From assembly GCA_017445025.1 (NCBI GenBank), contig JAFSVJ010000065.1, positions 1-41,820 of the forward strand: 41,820 nt of DNA, in the 5' to 3' direction. The position numbers and the translations under genes are program-made. The notes under the pieces are model-generated. The model was given only the letters and a program-made list of their open reading frames with translations. It did not search any database and was not told where the DNA came from. Numbering within the stretch: position 1 is the first letter of the stretch; every line of letters starts with the position of its first letter. The stretch is from Abditibacteriota bacterium (GTDB taxonomy: Bacteria > Armatimonadota > UBA5829). Positions 11,276 through 33,387 of this stretch are shown here, piece by piece.

Positions 11276-11303
11276 TATAAAAAAAGCACTCAATAGAGTG
11301 CTT
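11276..11303 (-). terminator. intrinsic terminator, now detached from the tRNA-Glu gene
   Basis: On the minus strand AAGCACTC TATT GAGTGCTT is followed by TTTTT. It directly follows the degraded tRNA-Glu 3' remnant (11303-11332). The simplest reading is that it is the original tRNA terminator, now 250 bases from the intact tRNA. Confidence 0.75.
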
Positions 11304-11332
11304 GGTTATCCATAGAGGAATGAACCCATATT
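11303..11332 (-). pseudogene. degraded 3' end of a tRNA-Glu gene
   Basis: This 30-base stretch matches the last 31 bases of the intact tRNA-Glu (11553-11583, same strand) at 26 of 31 positions with one gap: TGGTTATCCATAGAGGAAT versus TGGTAGTCCATAGGGGAAT, then GAACCC and TATT. It covers the acceptor 3' strand and the T arm, with substitutions that break both stems. It is a duplicated, decaying tRNA end, like the distal repeat left by an element inserted at a tRNA 3' end. Confidence 0.8.
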
Positions 11333-11333
11333 G

Positions 11334-11536
11334 ATTAAAAACCAAATCACCCAAAAGCACAATTTTTTATAAGCAATTTTGAGTGTAGTCGTCGACTGTA
11401 GACTCGCAGAATAAGGTTATTTTTAAAGGCGTAAGCCATTTAAAAATGTTCTTAGGCGAGAATCGTCAAGGAGACACGAAACGAAAAAGTGCGTTAAATA
11501 AAAAATTAGGGATTTTGAGGGGAGTTGGATTTTTAT
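11334..11536 (+). repeat. ~200-bp structured intergenic element, copy 1
   Basis: Left end AAATCACCCAAAAGCACAAT and right end TTAGGGATTTTGAGGGG are shared almost exactly with copy 2 (16036-16253, opposite strand). Between them come GTAGTCGTCGACTGTA, a stem-loop TTTTTAAAGGC-gtaa-GCCATTTAAAAA inside a wider CTCGC/GCGAG pairing, and CAAGGAGACACGAAA. The inner sequence differs between copies but the pairing is kept. It lies between the tRNA remnant and the intact tRNA-Glu. No open frame of note. Confidence 0.8.
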
Positions 11537-11552
11537 CAAATATAATAAAATA

Positions 11553-11627
11553 TGGTAGTCCATAGGGGAATCGAACCCCTATTACAAGATTGAGAATCTT
11601 GCGTGCTAACCGTTGCACCAATGGACC
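11553..11627 (-). tRNA. tRNA-Glu (anticodon CTC)
   Basis: 75 nt with encoded CCA. Acceptor stem GGTCCAT/ATGGACT (first pair G-U), D arm GTGC..GCAC, anticodon stem CAAGA/TCTTG with loop TTCTCAA giving anticodon CTC, T arm AGGGG-TTCGATT-CCCCT. It is read from a strong promoter at 11640-11669. Confidence 0.93.
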
Positions 11628-11639
11628 TTATGCATATAT

Positions 11640-11669
11640 ATTATACCATATTAGACTGTTATTTGTCAA
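11640..11669 (-). promoter_or_regulatory. promoter of tRNA-Glu
   Basis: TTGACA (11664-11669), 18 bases ending ATGG, TATAAT (11640-11645) on the minus strand. The tRNA 5' end is 12 bases downstream of the -10 box. Confidence 0.85.
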
Positions 11670-14959: not shown

Positions 14960-16003
14960 CTAACTAAAATTTTCCTTTATAATCTCAGCCGGAACATAAA
15001 TCTTTTTATATTCTTTTGAATTGGCTTTAATTAATTCTACCGTAATTTCGGCAATTTTAGAGATATTTTGTCTTCCCCAAGCCAATGTCATATTATTTTC
15101 CAAAATTATATCAGGTCTTTCATAGCAACCTATCATAACTTTCTTCTTTTCATTCAATTCTTCTTTACAAACTTCGTAAACATCTTTAAACATAAAAGAA
15201 TTTATACACAAAAACCCTACTCTTTCATATTTACATAAATCATTTTTAACATATTCTCTTATTTTGGGCAGATCATCATAATATGATCTTTCACTTGATA
15301 AAACTTCATATTTTTGATTCTTTTTTTTCAATATCTCAGCAAAACCTTTTTGTCTTTCAAAGCTCACATTGGTTTTACCCCAACCCTCTATATCAATAAC
15401 ATAAACCTTATCAAGTTTTTCTTTGCAGACTTCCATAGCCAAAGCCTTTGAAGAGGATATATTATCGGTTCCCACATAATTAGCATTAATTCCTTCAATG
15501 CATCTATCCACAAAAACCACATTGGGATTAATTTCTATGACTTTTTTATAATAAGGAATATTACTTTCATAGCCGGAATAATAAAAAATAATGCCGTAAG
15601 AGTTCTTTTGGAGCAGTCTCTCTAAAATTTGCCTTTCCAAATCTTCATTTCTTTTATAAAAAGAAATAGTCATCTCCATTTCATATTTTTCAAGAGCTGC
15701 TTCCAATTCTTCAACTAAAGGGAAATACCAACCGCTTCTGTCCATTCTACGCTTAACATCAGTTCCCTGCATAACATTATAAACTTCCAAAAACTCTTTT
15801 TTCTTGGGAGCCACAAAAGAACCTTTTCCGTGATGAGAATAGATTAATCCTTCACGCAACAGTTCCTCAAGAGCCTTACGAACTGTAATGTCACTAACCC
15901 CATACTGCTTTATTATCTCGTTTCGAGAAGGAAGCTTGTAATGAGCCTCGTGGTCATCTATAAGTTTTTTTAATACAGATTTGATTTCAATATACTTGAA
16001 CAT
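14960..16003 (-). CDS. GntR-HTH transcription regulator with LacI/periplasmic-binding sensor domain
   Basis: 347 aa. Residues ~1-70 form a GntR winged helix: KLPSRNEIIKQYGVSDITVR, then KALEELLREGLIYSHHGKGSFV. From ~80 onward the sequence looks like a LacI/GalR-type sugar-sensing domain (MDRSGWYFPLVEELEAALEK, SYGIIFYYSG, VVFVDRCIEGINANYVGTDN). This is the AraR-like architecture of repressors that respond to sugars or sugar phosphates. The Shine-Dalgarno is weak (AGAAGT). A truncated copy of its first ~52 codons lies upstream at 16255-16416, with repeat element copy 2 between them. The prepilin gene directly downstream has a palindromic operator-like site, so that gene is the likely target, but the inducer is unknown. 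Confidence 0.9.
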   Translation of the reverse strand: MFKYIEIKSVLKKLIDDHEAHYKLPSRNEIIKQYGVSDITVRKALEELLREGLIYSHHGKGSFVAPKKKEFLEVYNVMQGTDVKRRMDRSGWYFPLVEELEAALEKYEMEMTISFYKRNEDLERQILERLLQKNSYGIIFYYSGYESNIPYYKKVIEINPNVVFVDRCIEGINANYVGTDNISSSKALAMEVCKEKLDKVYVIDIEGWGKTNVSFERQKGFAEILKKKNQKYEVLSSERSYYDDLPKIREYVKNDLCKYERVGFLCINSFMFKDVYEVCKEELNEKKKVMIGCYERPDIILENNMTLAWGRQNISKIAEITVELIKANSKEYKKIYVPAEIIKENFS

Positions 16004-16035
16004 AGTTTTTTTACTTCTTTTTACTTATTTTTATA

Positions 16036-16253
16036 TTTTTTTAAAATAAAATCCCAAATCCCCTCAAAATCCCTAATTTTTTATTTAACGAAATATCTAT
16101 TTTCGTGTCTCCTTGACATTCGTTCGTATTAGAACAAAATCCATAATGGCTTATGCCTTATATCTTTTGCCCTACTACACACTCAATACAGTCGACGACT
16201 ACAAAACGATATTTCTTATAAAAAATTGTGCTTTTGGGTGATTTGTAATTTTT
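16036..16253 (-). repeat. ~200-bp structured intergenic element, copy 2
   Basis: Same element as 11334-11536 in the opposite orientation. Shared blocks on the minus strand: ACAAATCACCCAAAAGCACA, the AATTTTTTATAAG that follows, GTAGTCGTCGACTGTA, GTCAAGGAGACACGAAA and CGTTAAATAAAAAATTAGG with GATTTTGAGGGG. The central hairpin here is ATAAGGC-ataa-GCCATTAT with outer CAAAA/TTTTG, a different sequence from copy 1 but the same fold. It separates the truncated GntR copy (left, in element orientation) from the intact GntR gene (right). Confidence 0.8.
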
Positions 16254-16254
16254 T

Positions 16255-16416
16255 TTAGTACCCCTCACGCAACAGTTCCTCAAGAGCCTTTCGAACTGTA
16301 ATGTCACTAACATTATACATTTTTATTATCTCATTACGAGACGGTAGTTTATAATGTGGTTCATTATTATCTATTATTTTTTTTAATATTGATTTAATTT
16401 CAATATATTTGAACAT
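16255..16416 (-). pseudogene. truncated duplicate of the GntR regulator (N-terminal HTH only)
   Basis: 53 codons from ATG 16416 to TAA 16255. Its HTH (PHYKLPSRNEIIKMYNVSD, then ITVRKALEELLREG) matches the first ~52 residues of the intact regulator, and the upstream bases (AAAAGAAGTAAAAAAA) match too. Identity stops at LLREG, where element copy 2 begins; the frame then ends GYTAA-type within two codons. Many differences from the intact gene are synonymous or conservative, so it seems to come from a once-functional paralogue. A 53-aa HTH-only product might still bind DNA. It lies 31 bases downstream of the Gfo/Idh gene and would be co-transcribed with it. Confidence 0.8.
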
Positions 16417-16447
16417 TTTTTTTACTTCTTTTATATTATATATTTTT

Positions 16448-17542
16448 TTATTTTTTATCCTTAAGTCCTTCCAAAACCTTTGCATAAGCTTCAGGATCTA
16501 AGGGTAGATCTATTTTTTTATTCATTATGGTTGAATATATCATTGCATTGGCAAGTTCCACAGAATTTATTCCCTCTTCTGCGGGAGCTATTAAGGTTTT
16601 GCCCTCTCTTATGGCATCTATAACATTTTGAGTAATAATGGCATGCTGGAAAAGGTGAGGAACAAATTCTTCTTTATATTCATATACACCTTCGATTTCC
16701 GGATCAGCCCAAGGCTCAATGGTGGTTCTGTTAAATTCTGCAGTTCCTACTTTATTCTTAATAACCTTAATTATTCCGTCCTGAAATATCAAAAGCCCAT
16801 TATCACCGGCAATTTCCAAATGAAATATTCCCGGAGCCTCTCCTGTGGTAGTAATAATATTTCCCACAGCTCCGTTAGGATAAAAGAGAGTTGCGTTTAC
16901 ATCATCTTCCACTTCAATAGGATGATATTTTCCAAATTCGCAAAAAGCACGAATGGCACAAGGCATACCACAAAGCCATTGAACCAAATCCAAATGGTGA
17001 GGCATTTGATTTAACAAAATACCACCACCTTCCCCTGACCAAGTGGCTCTCCAAGAGCCGGATCTGTAGTAAGCGTTGGTTCTATACCAATTGGTGGCAA
17101 TTAAGGTCACTCTTTGCAATTCACCTAAAGTAGGTATTAACTCTTTTAATTTTATGTGTTGAGGAATGGTTCTTTGATTGAACATGGCTGAAAATACCAC
17201 GTTCTTATCATCGTGAGCCTTTATAAGCTTTAAGCAATCGGCTTTATGAACGGAAATAGGCTTTTCAACTATTGTATGAATTTTCTTTGAAAGAGCATAA
17301 GCACCGATATATGTATGAGAATAATGAGGAGTTGCCACTATAACAGCGTCGATATCCCCTGAATCTATAAGTTCTTTGTAATCTGTGTAAAACTTGTAAT
17401 TGGGGTGTTCTTTATGCTTTTCTTCCAATAAATCACAAATGGCAACAAGCTTTCCACCCGTCACTCTTCCCTCTTCAAAGTTTTCAATATGGCCGGTCCC
17501 CATATTACCGATACCAATTATACCAAAACGAACTTCTTGCAT
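16448..17542 (-). CDS. Gfo/Idh/MocA family NAD(P)-dependent oxidoreductase
   Basis: 364 aa, normal for the family. An N-terminal Rossmann fold has FGIIGIGNMGTGHIENF (residues 6-22), then the DAVIVATPHYSHTYI loop and the EKPIS motif (~94-98), whose Lys is catalytic. The C-terminal alpha/beta half carries GGGILLNQMPHHLDLVQWL, with a His in the usual catalytic position. Such enzymes oxidise or reduce sugars, inositols or sugar derivatives; the exact substrate cannot be read from sequence. AAAGGA lies 8 bases before the ATG. It begins a minus-strand run: dehydrogenase, truncated GntR, element, intact GntR. This suggests a sugar-responsive unit. Confidence 0.92.
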   Translation of the reverse strand: MQEVRFGIIGIGNMGTGHIENFEEGRVTGGKLVAICDLLEEKHKEHPNYKFYTDYKELIDSGDIDAVIVATPHYSHTYIGAYALSKKIHTIVEKPISVHKADCLKLIKAHDDKNVVFSAMFNQRTIPQHIKLKELIPTLGELQRVTLIATNWYRTNAYYRSGSWRATWSGEGGGILLNQMPHHLDLVQWLCGMPCAIRAFCEFGKYHPIEVEDDVNATLFYPNGAVGNIITTTGEAPGIFHLEIAGDNGLLIFQDGIIKVIKNKVGTAEFNRTTIEPWADPEIEGVYEYKEEFVPHLFQHAIITQNVIDAIREGKTLIAPAEEGINSVELANAMIYSTIMNKKIDLPLDPEAYAKVLEGLKDKK

Positions 17543-18738: not shown

Positions 18739-19173
18739 AAATAGATAAATTTAAGCACGAAATTTGTATTTATTTATATGTTAATATTATAAATAAAAGC
18801 GGAAATAACAATTTAAATTAATGGTCTTGCTGAGGTCAATAAGTTTTTTTTAGAATTTGCGTAGCAAATTCGTGTTTTTTTAAGAATTTCCCTAAAAATC
18901 CCTAAATTTTTCCGACGAAAAACGAGCACAATCCCTCGCTTTTAAATTTTGGTGACGCATAATTGTCTTAGCTCCCATTTTCTTCATAAATGGAACTTTA
19001 ATAAATTAAAGCCCCATTTCTTTTGAAAATGGGGCTAATCCACCGGCAATTCTCCGAATTGCCTATTATTTGCTTTACAATTTTTTCTTATGCTGTTCAG
19101 TCGGAAATTCCTTTAAAAAATTGATCTTTTCGGTGCTTTGAAATTTTATGCTCTGTGCTTTATGAGTAAATTC
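18739..19173. repeat. 435-bp hairpin-rich spacer, no gene seen
   Basis: Holds four perfect or near-perfect hairpins: GAATTTGC-gta-GCAAATTC (18853-18871), CCATTTtcttcatAAATGG (18975-18993), AGCCCCATTT..AAATGGGGCT (19010-19036) and GGCAATTC-tcc-GAATTGCC (19045-19063). On the minus strand the AGCCCC hairpin is followed by TTTAATTTATT and may terminate the solute-binding protein gene. The first hairpin shares its arm with the AAATTTGC hairpins at gene ends elsewhere. GGGATTTTTAGGGA near 18889-18905 (minus strand) recalls the right end of the ~200-bp element, but I cannot align the rest. No promoter or open frame stands out. Confidence 0.55.
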
Positions 19174-33056: not shown

Positions 33057-33187
33057 ACTTACCTCATAATAGATGAAAATATATATATTTCCAAAATATA
33101 GTGTTAAATATCAGTCACTCTATATACAGAGTAGACATTATTTTTTTAGTGGTTTTTATTACCACTAATTATATATCATAAATATAA

Positions 33188-33387
33188 AATTACAAAGGAC
33201 CAAAAATATCAATTTTTCGCAAGAAATTGCGAATGCAGTTGTGGACCGTAGACGCGGAGCAAAATGTCATTTTTCAATGCATTAATCATTAATAAGATAT
33301 TATTTTGTAAGAATCGCCTGGAAGATACAAAAGGAGACATTTCATTAAGTAAAAAAATACTTTTGGGCATTTGAGATTTTATTTTAA
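33188..33387 (+). repeat. ~200-bp structured intergenic element, copy 3 (divergent)
   Basis: Matches copies 1 and 2 at the ends (ATTACAAA..CC.AAAA...CAATTTTT on the left; TTTGAGATTTTATTTTA on the right) and in the order GTTGTGGACCGTAGACGCGG, CAAAAT...ATTTTG pairing, GAATCGCC, then AAAAGGAGACAT. The central loop sequence is different. It lies between the promoter at 33447-33475 and the glycosidase gene, so it would be transcribed, reversed, in that leader. The rest of the 33057-33592 gap holds two small hairpins (ACTCTATATACAGAGT near 33117; AGTGGTTTTTATTACCACT near 33150), the promoter and the RND terminator. Confidence 0.6.

Follow-up and report, generated by a model that had tools for sequence, protein, structure and literature searches.

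The window, that is the whole stretch of 41,820 nucleotides that was analysed (contig JAFSVJ010000065.1), comes from an Abditibacteriota bacterium whose assembly (GCA_017445025.1) comprises 2.85 Mb in 122 contigs and is 91.6% complete. Read on the minus strand, the locus presents a promoter, an intact tRNA-Glu(CTC), a copy of a palindromic element, a remnant of the tRNA 3' end and a terminator (Table 1), and this order, which had been proposed from the letters of the DNA, was confirmed by ARAGORN, Rfam, direct reading and alignment. The left copy of the duplicated target is formed by the last 31 bases of the gene, and local alignment of the 30-base remnant with these bases gave 26 matches with one gap. 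The predicted match at 26 positions was thus recovered with a local score of 20, far above the 9.0 +/- 1.4 (maximum 15) obtained in 2000 dinucleotide shuffles. The inserted piece was also said to be tiny and devoid of an integrase, which was borne out by its length of ~200 bp with no coding capacity for such an enzyme. A hairpin with a T run is found downstream of the remnant only and not of the intact tRNA-Glu, and is presumably the original terminator of this gene. No synteny of the locus was found in the nearest genomes, where the closest GH38 homologues are ~47% identical at most and have no tRNA nearby. The direct repeat at tRNA-Glu is short and old, its score of 17.5 lying below the survey threshold of 20, and the conclusion for this single locus leans on the element family.

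The window contains further members of this family. A second full-length copy lies between direct repeats of 193/195 bp that are 82% identical and represent the 5' end of the gene for a GntR-type regulator. The third, diverged copy has no flanking direct repeat above the threshold (score 16.5), and none was found around the long variant, which shares the ends of the element and differs in its core.

Table 1. Features at the tRNA-Glu locus and at the other element copies of the window
Feature	Position	Strand	Basis
tRNA-Glu promoter	11640..11669	-	TTGACA 11669-11664 and TATAAT 11645-11640, read from sequence
Intact tRNA-Glu(CTC)	11553..11627	-	ARAGORN and Rfam RF00005, 68.4 bits
Element copy 1, palindromic, full length (model positions 1-201)	11336..11536	-	BLAST family of 44 matches; covariance model R1, 215.7 bits
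Right target copy, decayed tRNA-Glu 3' end	11303..11332	-	26/31 positions; same layout in 51/58 element copies
Rho-independent-type terminator, AGCACTC-TATT-GAGTGCT-T run	11279..11302 (about)	-	Read from sequence
GntR-type regulator gene	14960..16003	-	Pfam GntR
Left (functional) target copy of element copy 2, 5' end of GntR-type regulator gene	15849..16041	.	Direct repeat
Element copy 2, palindromic, full length	16046..16252	+	Covariance model R1, 192.8 bits
Right (decaying) target copy of element copy 2, same GntR-type 5' gene end	16262..16456	.	Direct repeat
Long variant, ~261 bp, same ends and different core	18885..19145	+	Terminal-profile matches 18885-18912 and 19098-19145
Third element copy, diverged	33186..33382	-	Covariance model R1, 113 bits

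Distribution of the element family

A BLAST search with the element identified 44 related places in the same genome. The covariance model, built from 26 element copies, gave 101 genome matches, part of which are opposite-strand second matches of the same copies, and these resolve into about 70 distinct copies of ~200 bp and some 20 longer ones of ~265-280 bp. Being shorter than 500 bp, AT-rich, intergenic, multi-copy and bounded by terminal inverted repeats, the element has the layout of miniature inverted-repeat transposable elements (MITEs) described in a review (PMC10969869). The same model detected no copy in 120 other genomes ranging from genus to phylum level. Viral contigs, phages and plasmids held no element by pattern or BLAST search, one pattern match on a viral contig being without a model match, and the contigs of named relatives gave two pattern matches that both look like chance (the records of the window's own genome were excluded from these collections). 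The one of these two in Clostridia proved to be GC-rich DNA that lacks the element, and Rfam offered no known RNA family for it even with a relaxed threshold. A longer autonomous relative with the same ends was absent from the 441 kb searched, in which the long variants reach only ~322 bp.

The family is variable in length. Long variants of 261-322 bp combine the same ends with another structured core (C103:1423, 69102, 96662 and 97748; the one in the window; and many more), and several of them share the extended terminal repeat TTGAGTATAAAAA/TTTTTATACTCGC. Variants of ~82 bp consist of the terminal stem only (C45:14644-14725, C70:20105-20186 and L051) and are nevertheless flanked by direct repeats, of 60-84 bp at C45 and C70; insertion may therefore not depend on the core. 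Other copies exceed the usual length by ~55 bp (C87:13596-13850, C46:20393-20647, C30:2987-3247 and C93:35928-36182), the excess being a second, smaller hairpin (of the AAGTTTTGCAAGCTCAACTTTTCGGGAACCC type in C93) that interrupts the element, so that one hairpin element is nested in another. Copies on contig C103 occur in mixed orientation, with no simple replication-direction bias. Besides, the genome G001, labelled as the same genus and with a GC content of 57% versus 35% in the window's genome, carries GC-rich hairpin mosaics of its own but only one clear case of long flanking repeats (L157 226-319/515-611), where direct repeats of 85-95 bp are 92% identical over 85 bp.

Hairpin structure

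The whole element forms one long imperfect hairpin. Both sides of 23 of the 46 consensus pairs change with pairing kept (143 cells versus 47 in shuffles), and this covariation signal is lost when the partners are slid by one to three columns. As RNA, the opposite strand folds better in 26/26 copies (mean -58 vs -44 kcal/mol), a difference that may partly reflect base composition, and among the 37 pairs common to both folds the transition mismatches appear as G.U on the opposite strand in 24 cases and in the reverse sense in 2, the copies being related so that these are not 24 independent events. This suggests that the hairpin acts as a single strand of opposite-strand polarity. If it does, the 3' end of such an RNA would fall at the left end of the element, i.e. 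at the AT-rich junction that target-primed reverse transcription would be expected to use as its primary one.

Direct repeats around the element

Direct repeats that are specific to the locus and measure about 22-233 bp (median ~90) enclose 51 of the 58 copies with readable flanks, and the remaining 7/58 have no direct repeat above threshold. The threshold was a score of at least 20; when 3000 positions were drawn at random from the same DNA, 0.63% passed it. Within the first set, 34/36 copies reached this score with duplications of 22 to 193 bp (median 90), and in a blind test 17 of 22 further ~200-bp copies, fetched afterwards through the covariance model, passed as well with duplications of up to 233 bp. 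Among the long variants, 7/15 have a direct repeat above threshold and 8/15 none. An unbiased self-scan of 441 kb returned 14 pairs of direct repeats lying close together, separated by an insert of 40-600 bp; nine pairs flank a copy of the ~200-bp class (one a double copy) and two more the 82-bp variants. Most duplicated targets are the ends of protein genes, and tRNA 3' ends only stand out most readily. In the freshest case (C43:23862), a duplication identical at 100/100 bp spans the last codons of the gene and its stop codon. The left target copy stays joined to its gene, which remains intact, and the right copy decays; from this layout we infer that the duplication arises at the moment of insertion. 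At C76:221 (L107) and L051 the terminators of the two target copies differ in stem sequence with each stem still paired, a hint that palindromes are corrected rapidly in this genome.

The size, AT-richness, terminal inverted repeats and intergenic position would all suit an ordinary MITE of a DDE transposase that has lost its parent, the long direct repeats then being older duplications or coincidences. DDE transposases produce short target duplications of nearly fixed length, however, whereas those seen here are specific to each locus, directly adjoin the element and range in length from 22 to 233 bp, and the control rate at random positions is only 0.6%. Moreover, domain searches of the whole assembly found no DDE_Tnp_1, no Cas12f1-like_TNB (TnpB) and no Y1 (RAYT) transposase domain (PF01797 / Y1_Tnp), the last with a positive E. 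coli control. We therefore hold an ordinary MITE to be very improbable.

tRNA genes as targets

All tRNA genes found were checked for the same layout. Their 3' part is duplicated downstream around the element at Glu-CTC, Gly-TCC, Arg-TCG, Gln-TTG, Gln-CTG and initiator Met, and around other hairpin bodies at elongator Met and Arg-TCT; at the loci with this layout the tRNA always lies left of the element. The Gly-TCC duplicate agrees at 45/45 bases from the anticodon arm onward, its 5' half being absent. The point at which the duplicate starts lies in the D-arm in Arg-TCG, in the anticodon arm in Gly and Met and in the variable/T-arm in Glu and Gln, and several duplicates run on through the terminator. 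In the initial set of elements, five copies have a tRNA within 400 bp where 0.5 would be expected, so that tRNA ends serve as targets more often than chance allows.

Arrays are found at two of the tRNA genes. On C115 from 27040 (L046), tRNA-Arg(TCT) is followed by head-to-tail units of ~190 bp, each of which ends with a decayed tRNA-Arg 3' end, and the hairpin body of these units is unrelated to the main element; this may be a second family inserting in the same way. The initiator tRNA-Met heads an array of units made of element and tRNA 3' end, which breaks the assembly between two contigs (the end of C93, L057 and L239, and C47, L124).

If a tyrosine recombinase integrated DNA site-specifically at tRNA 3' ends and the small piece were a satellite or deletion remnant, the several tRNA ends duplicated around the element would be accounted for, and the genome does encode five tyrosine-recombinase genes (Phage_integrase matches, two of them Xer-like in size and score), the only classical recombinases among the families searched. 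Such integration is at odds, however, with a duplication start that varies between tRNAs and thus leaves no common att core, with the majority of copies at protein genes, and with duplications of 22-233 bp that have no conserved sequence and misfit a crossover at a fixed core, and we judge it the most improbable of the explanations considered. The tRNA 3'-end duplication, which the original prediction had taken as a hallmark of integration, loses that meaning here, since the duplications are ~22 to 233 bp long, often pass through the terminator and lie mostly at non-tRNA sites. Its view of the remnant as a tRNA 3'-end duplication caused by an inserted foreign piece stands, whereas the att-type site specificity attached to it falls with the varying start of the duplication. 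Likewise, a small non-autonomous element, the 'new type' among the options that it named, is retained, and its main reading is abandoned because most copies lie away from tRNAs.

The remnant could also descend from a former tandem pair of full tRNA-Glu genes, of which the second decayed and between or into which the repeat was inserted. In favour of this, the remnant resembles a tRNA 3' end, and at Gln-CTG (C93) a nearly full second tRNA copy is present that is itself split by a second element. Yet at Gly, Arg-TCG, Met and Gln-TTG the copy starts abruptly inside the tRNA with the downstream sequence highly similar, and dozens of protein genes show the same abruptly truncated layout, which makes a tandem origin highly improbable.

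Polarity of insertion and its possible mechanism

The layout would be explained if a target U-D-V were converted to U-D-[element]-D-V, in which D is about 22 to 233 bp long (median ~90) and specific to the site; at tRNA-Glu, D would be the last ~31 bp of the gene. We examined, in the element's own orientation, open frames of at least 210 nt that cross one border of the duplicated piece D only. The border between U and D alone was crossed in 30 copies and that between D and V alone in 3 (p = 1.4e-6), i.e. the duplicated piece is almost always taken from the left flank of the element, where the gene body lies; one of the three right-border exceptions (C105) has a tRNA on its left. As the gene strands in this set are divided into 13 plus and 17 minus, the direction of transcription does not explain the polarity. 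Selection for intact genes alone would be symmetrical, and the polarity should thus belong to the insertion mechanism.

The two junctions differ as well. The right gap, between the element and the second target copy, is tight (median 6 bases, interquartile range 2.5-7), whereas the left gap varies widely (median 9, interquartile range -2 to 41), and the AT content is 77% at the left target and 62% at the right target against 65% in a genome sample. A rule that the target must itself be a hairpin (X...X') was considered; it seemed to hold at Arg-TCG, Met and C76 and failed as a general rule. The site-specific inverted-repeat extension amounts to 4.85 versus 3.10 bases (p<0.001) within about 15 bases of the element and is absent beyond this distance (z = 0).

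Taken together, it is probable that the element at tRNA-Glu belongs to a non-autonomous, palindromic, mobile-like repeat of ~200 bp that is present in about 70 copies and whose insertion is coupled to duplication of the left flank. The most likely form of this is a MITE-like non-autonomous element that inserts in two steps with widely separated junctions. The left end of the element would first join an AT-rich intergenic site, and the right end would then join further back, at a point within the neighbouring gene whose distance varies, and the stretch between the two junctions would thereby be copied twice. Variable length combined with polarity makes both an integrase and a DDE transposase of fixed stagger poor candidates, and two routes fit this combination best. 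In the first, a hairpin RNA, its 3' end corresponding to the left end of the element, would be copied by target-primed reverse transcription with a widely offset second nick, and we give this route somewhat less than an even chance. The variable-length target duplication with a polar primary junction is what this chemistry would leave; against it, no reverse transcriptase domain (RVT_1, PF00078) was found in the 91.6%-complete assembly, from which 8% of the genome may be missing (the E. coli control was positive), and there is no clear 5'-truncation series. The second, a more tentative proposal, is template switching by DNA synthesis that would pass across the hairpin and resume upstream. The chances appear about balanced that the element is a bacterial SINE-like or template-switching hairpin element with polar two-step insertion and junctions 20-230 bp apart.

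The order of events could also be reversed, the element inserting first with no long duplication and its hairpin later provoking the copying of the left flank to the right side, for instance by replication slippage or template switching. This would suit C64:8554, where the right D copy passes directly into the initial ~30 bp of an element in the manner of a partial tandem unit, the initiator-tRNA locus with its repeated D-element units, and the element copies that have no duplications. However, in nearly all copies the right D copy begins a few bases from the element's right end (median gap 6), simple slippage would copy D together with the element to give D-E-D-E, and the duplication is near-universal (51/58), and we consider such a later duplication unlikely.

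Comparison with known systems

The prokaryotic MITEs RUP, Correia/NEMIS and ERIC (PMC10969869) share with the element a short length (<500 bp), AT-richness, terminal inverted repeats and many copies, as well as AT-rich intergenic positions and flanking direct repeats that decay with age. Their direct repeats span a few bases, whereas those of the element span 22-233 bp; unlike them, the element is over nearly its whole length one covarying hairpin with a strong polarity towards the neighbouring gene, and its parental transposase was not found in the assembly (91.6% complete). REP sequences and REPINs with their RAYT (TnpA-REP) transposases (PMC2817692, PMC3116915) are similar in being palindromic intergenic repeats that are moved in trans. 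They differ in that the window's genome has no Y1 transposase domain. To our knowledge, duplication of about 100 bp of target does not accompany REP insertion. Integrative and conjugative elements (ICEs), IMEs and prophages at tRNA 3' ends likewise leave a duplicate of the tRNA 3' end beyond the insert, but the element has no integrase and no common core, uses protein-gene sites too, and its duplication may start anywhere in the tRNA. Rickettsia palindromic elements are located within reading frames, and we know of no long target duplications associated with them. Like the element, these sequences, which are named in the MITE review (PMC10969869), are palindromic, multi-copy and restricted to few species.

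The closest parallels in variable-length target duplication, polar insertion and one defined primary junction are with eukaryotic non-LTR retrotransposons and SINEs, which insert by target-primed reverse transcription, and as in SINEs a small structured RNA could be the passenger. Unlike these, the element is mostly full length at both ends, has no A-tail, and no reverse transcriptase domain was found. We know of no bacterial SINE of such a kind, and the bacterial insertion elements known to us duplicate only a few bases of their target. The open-access literature that we searched held no bacterial description of duplications this long, which is not proof of absence.

Significance

A duplication of ~100 bp in a fixed direction points to a chemistry closer to retrotransposition or to template switching during replication. 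As a tRNA 3'-end duplication is explained here with no need of an integrase, it is by itself no proof of an integrative element. The genome can tolerate insertions in genes because the duplicated end keeps the gene whole; if insertion is indeed polar and in two steps, each event near a gene end would leave the gene intact and deposit a duplicate of that end on the far side of the element. The family would then represent a class of mobile DNA in prokaryotes whose insertion chemistry has not been described so far.
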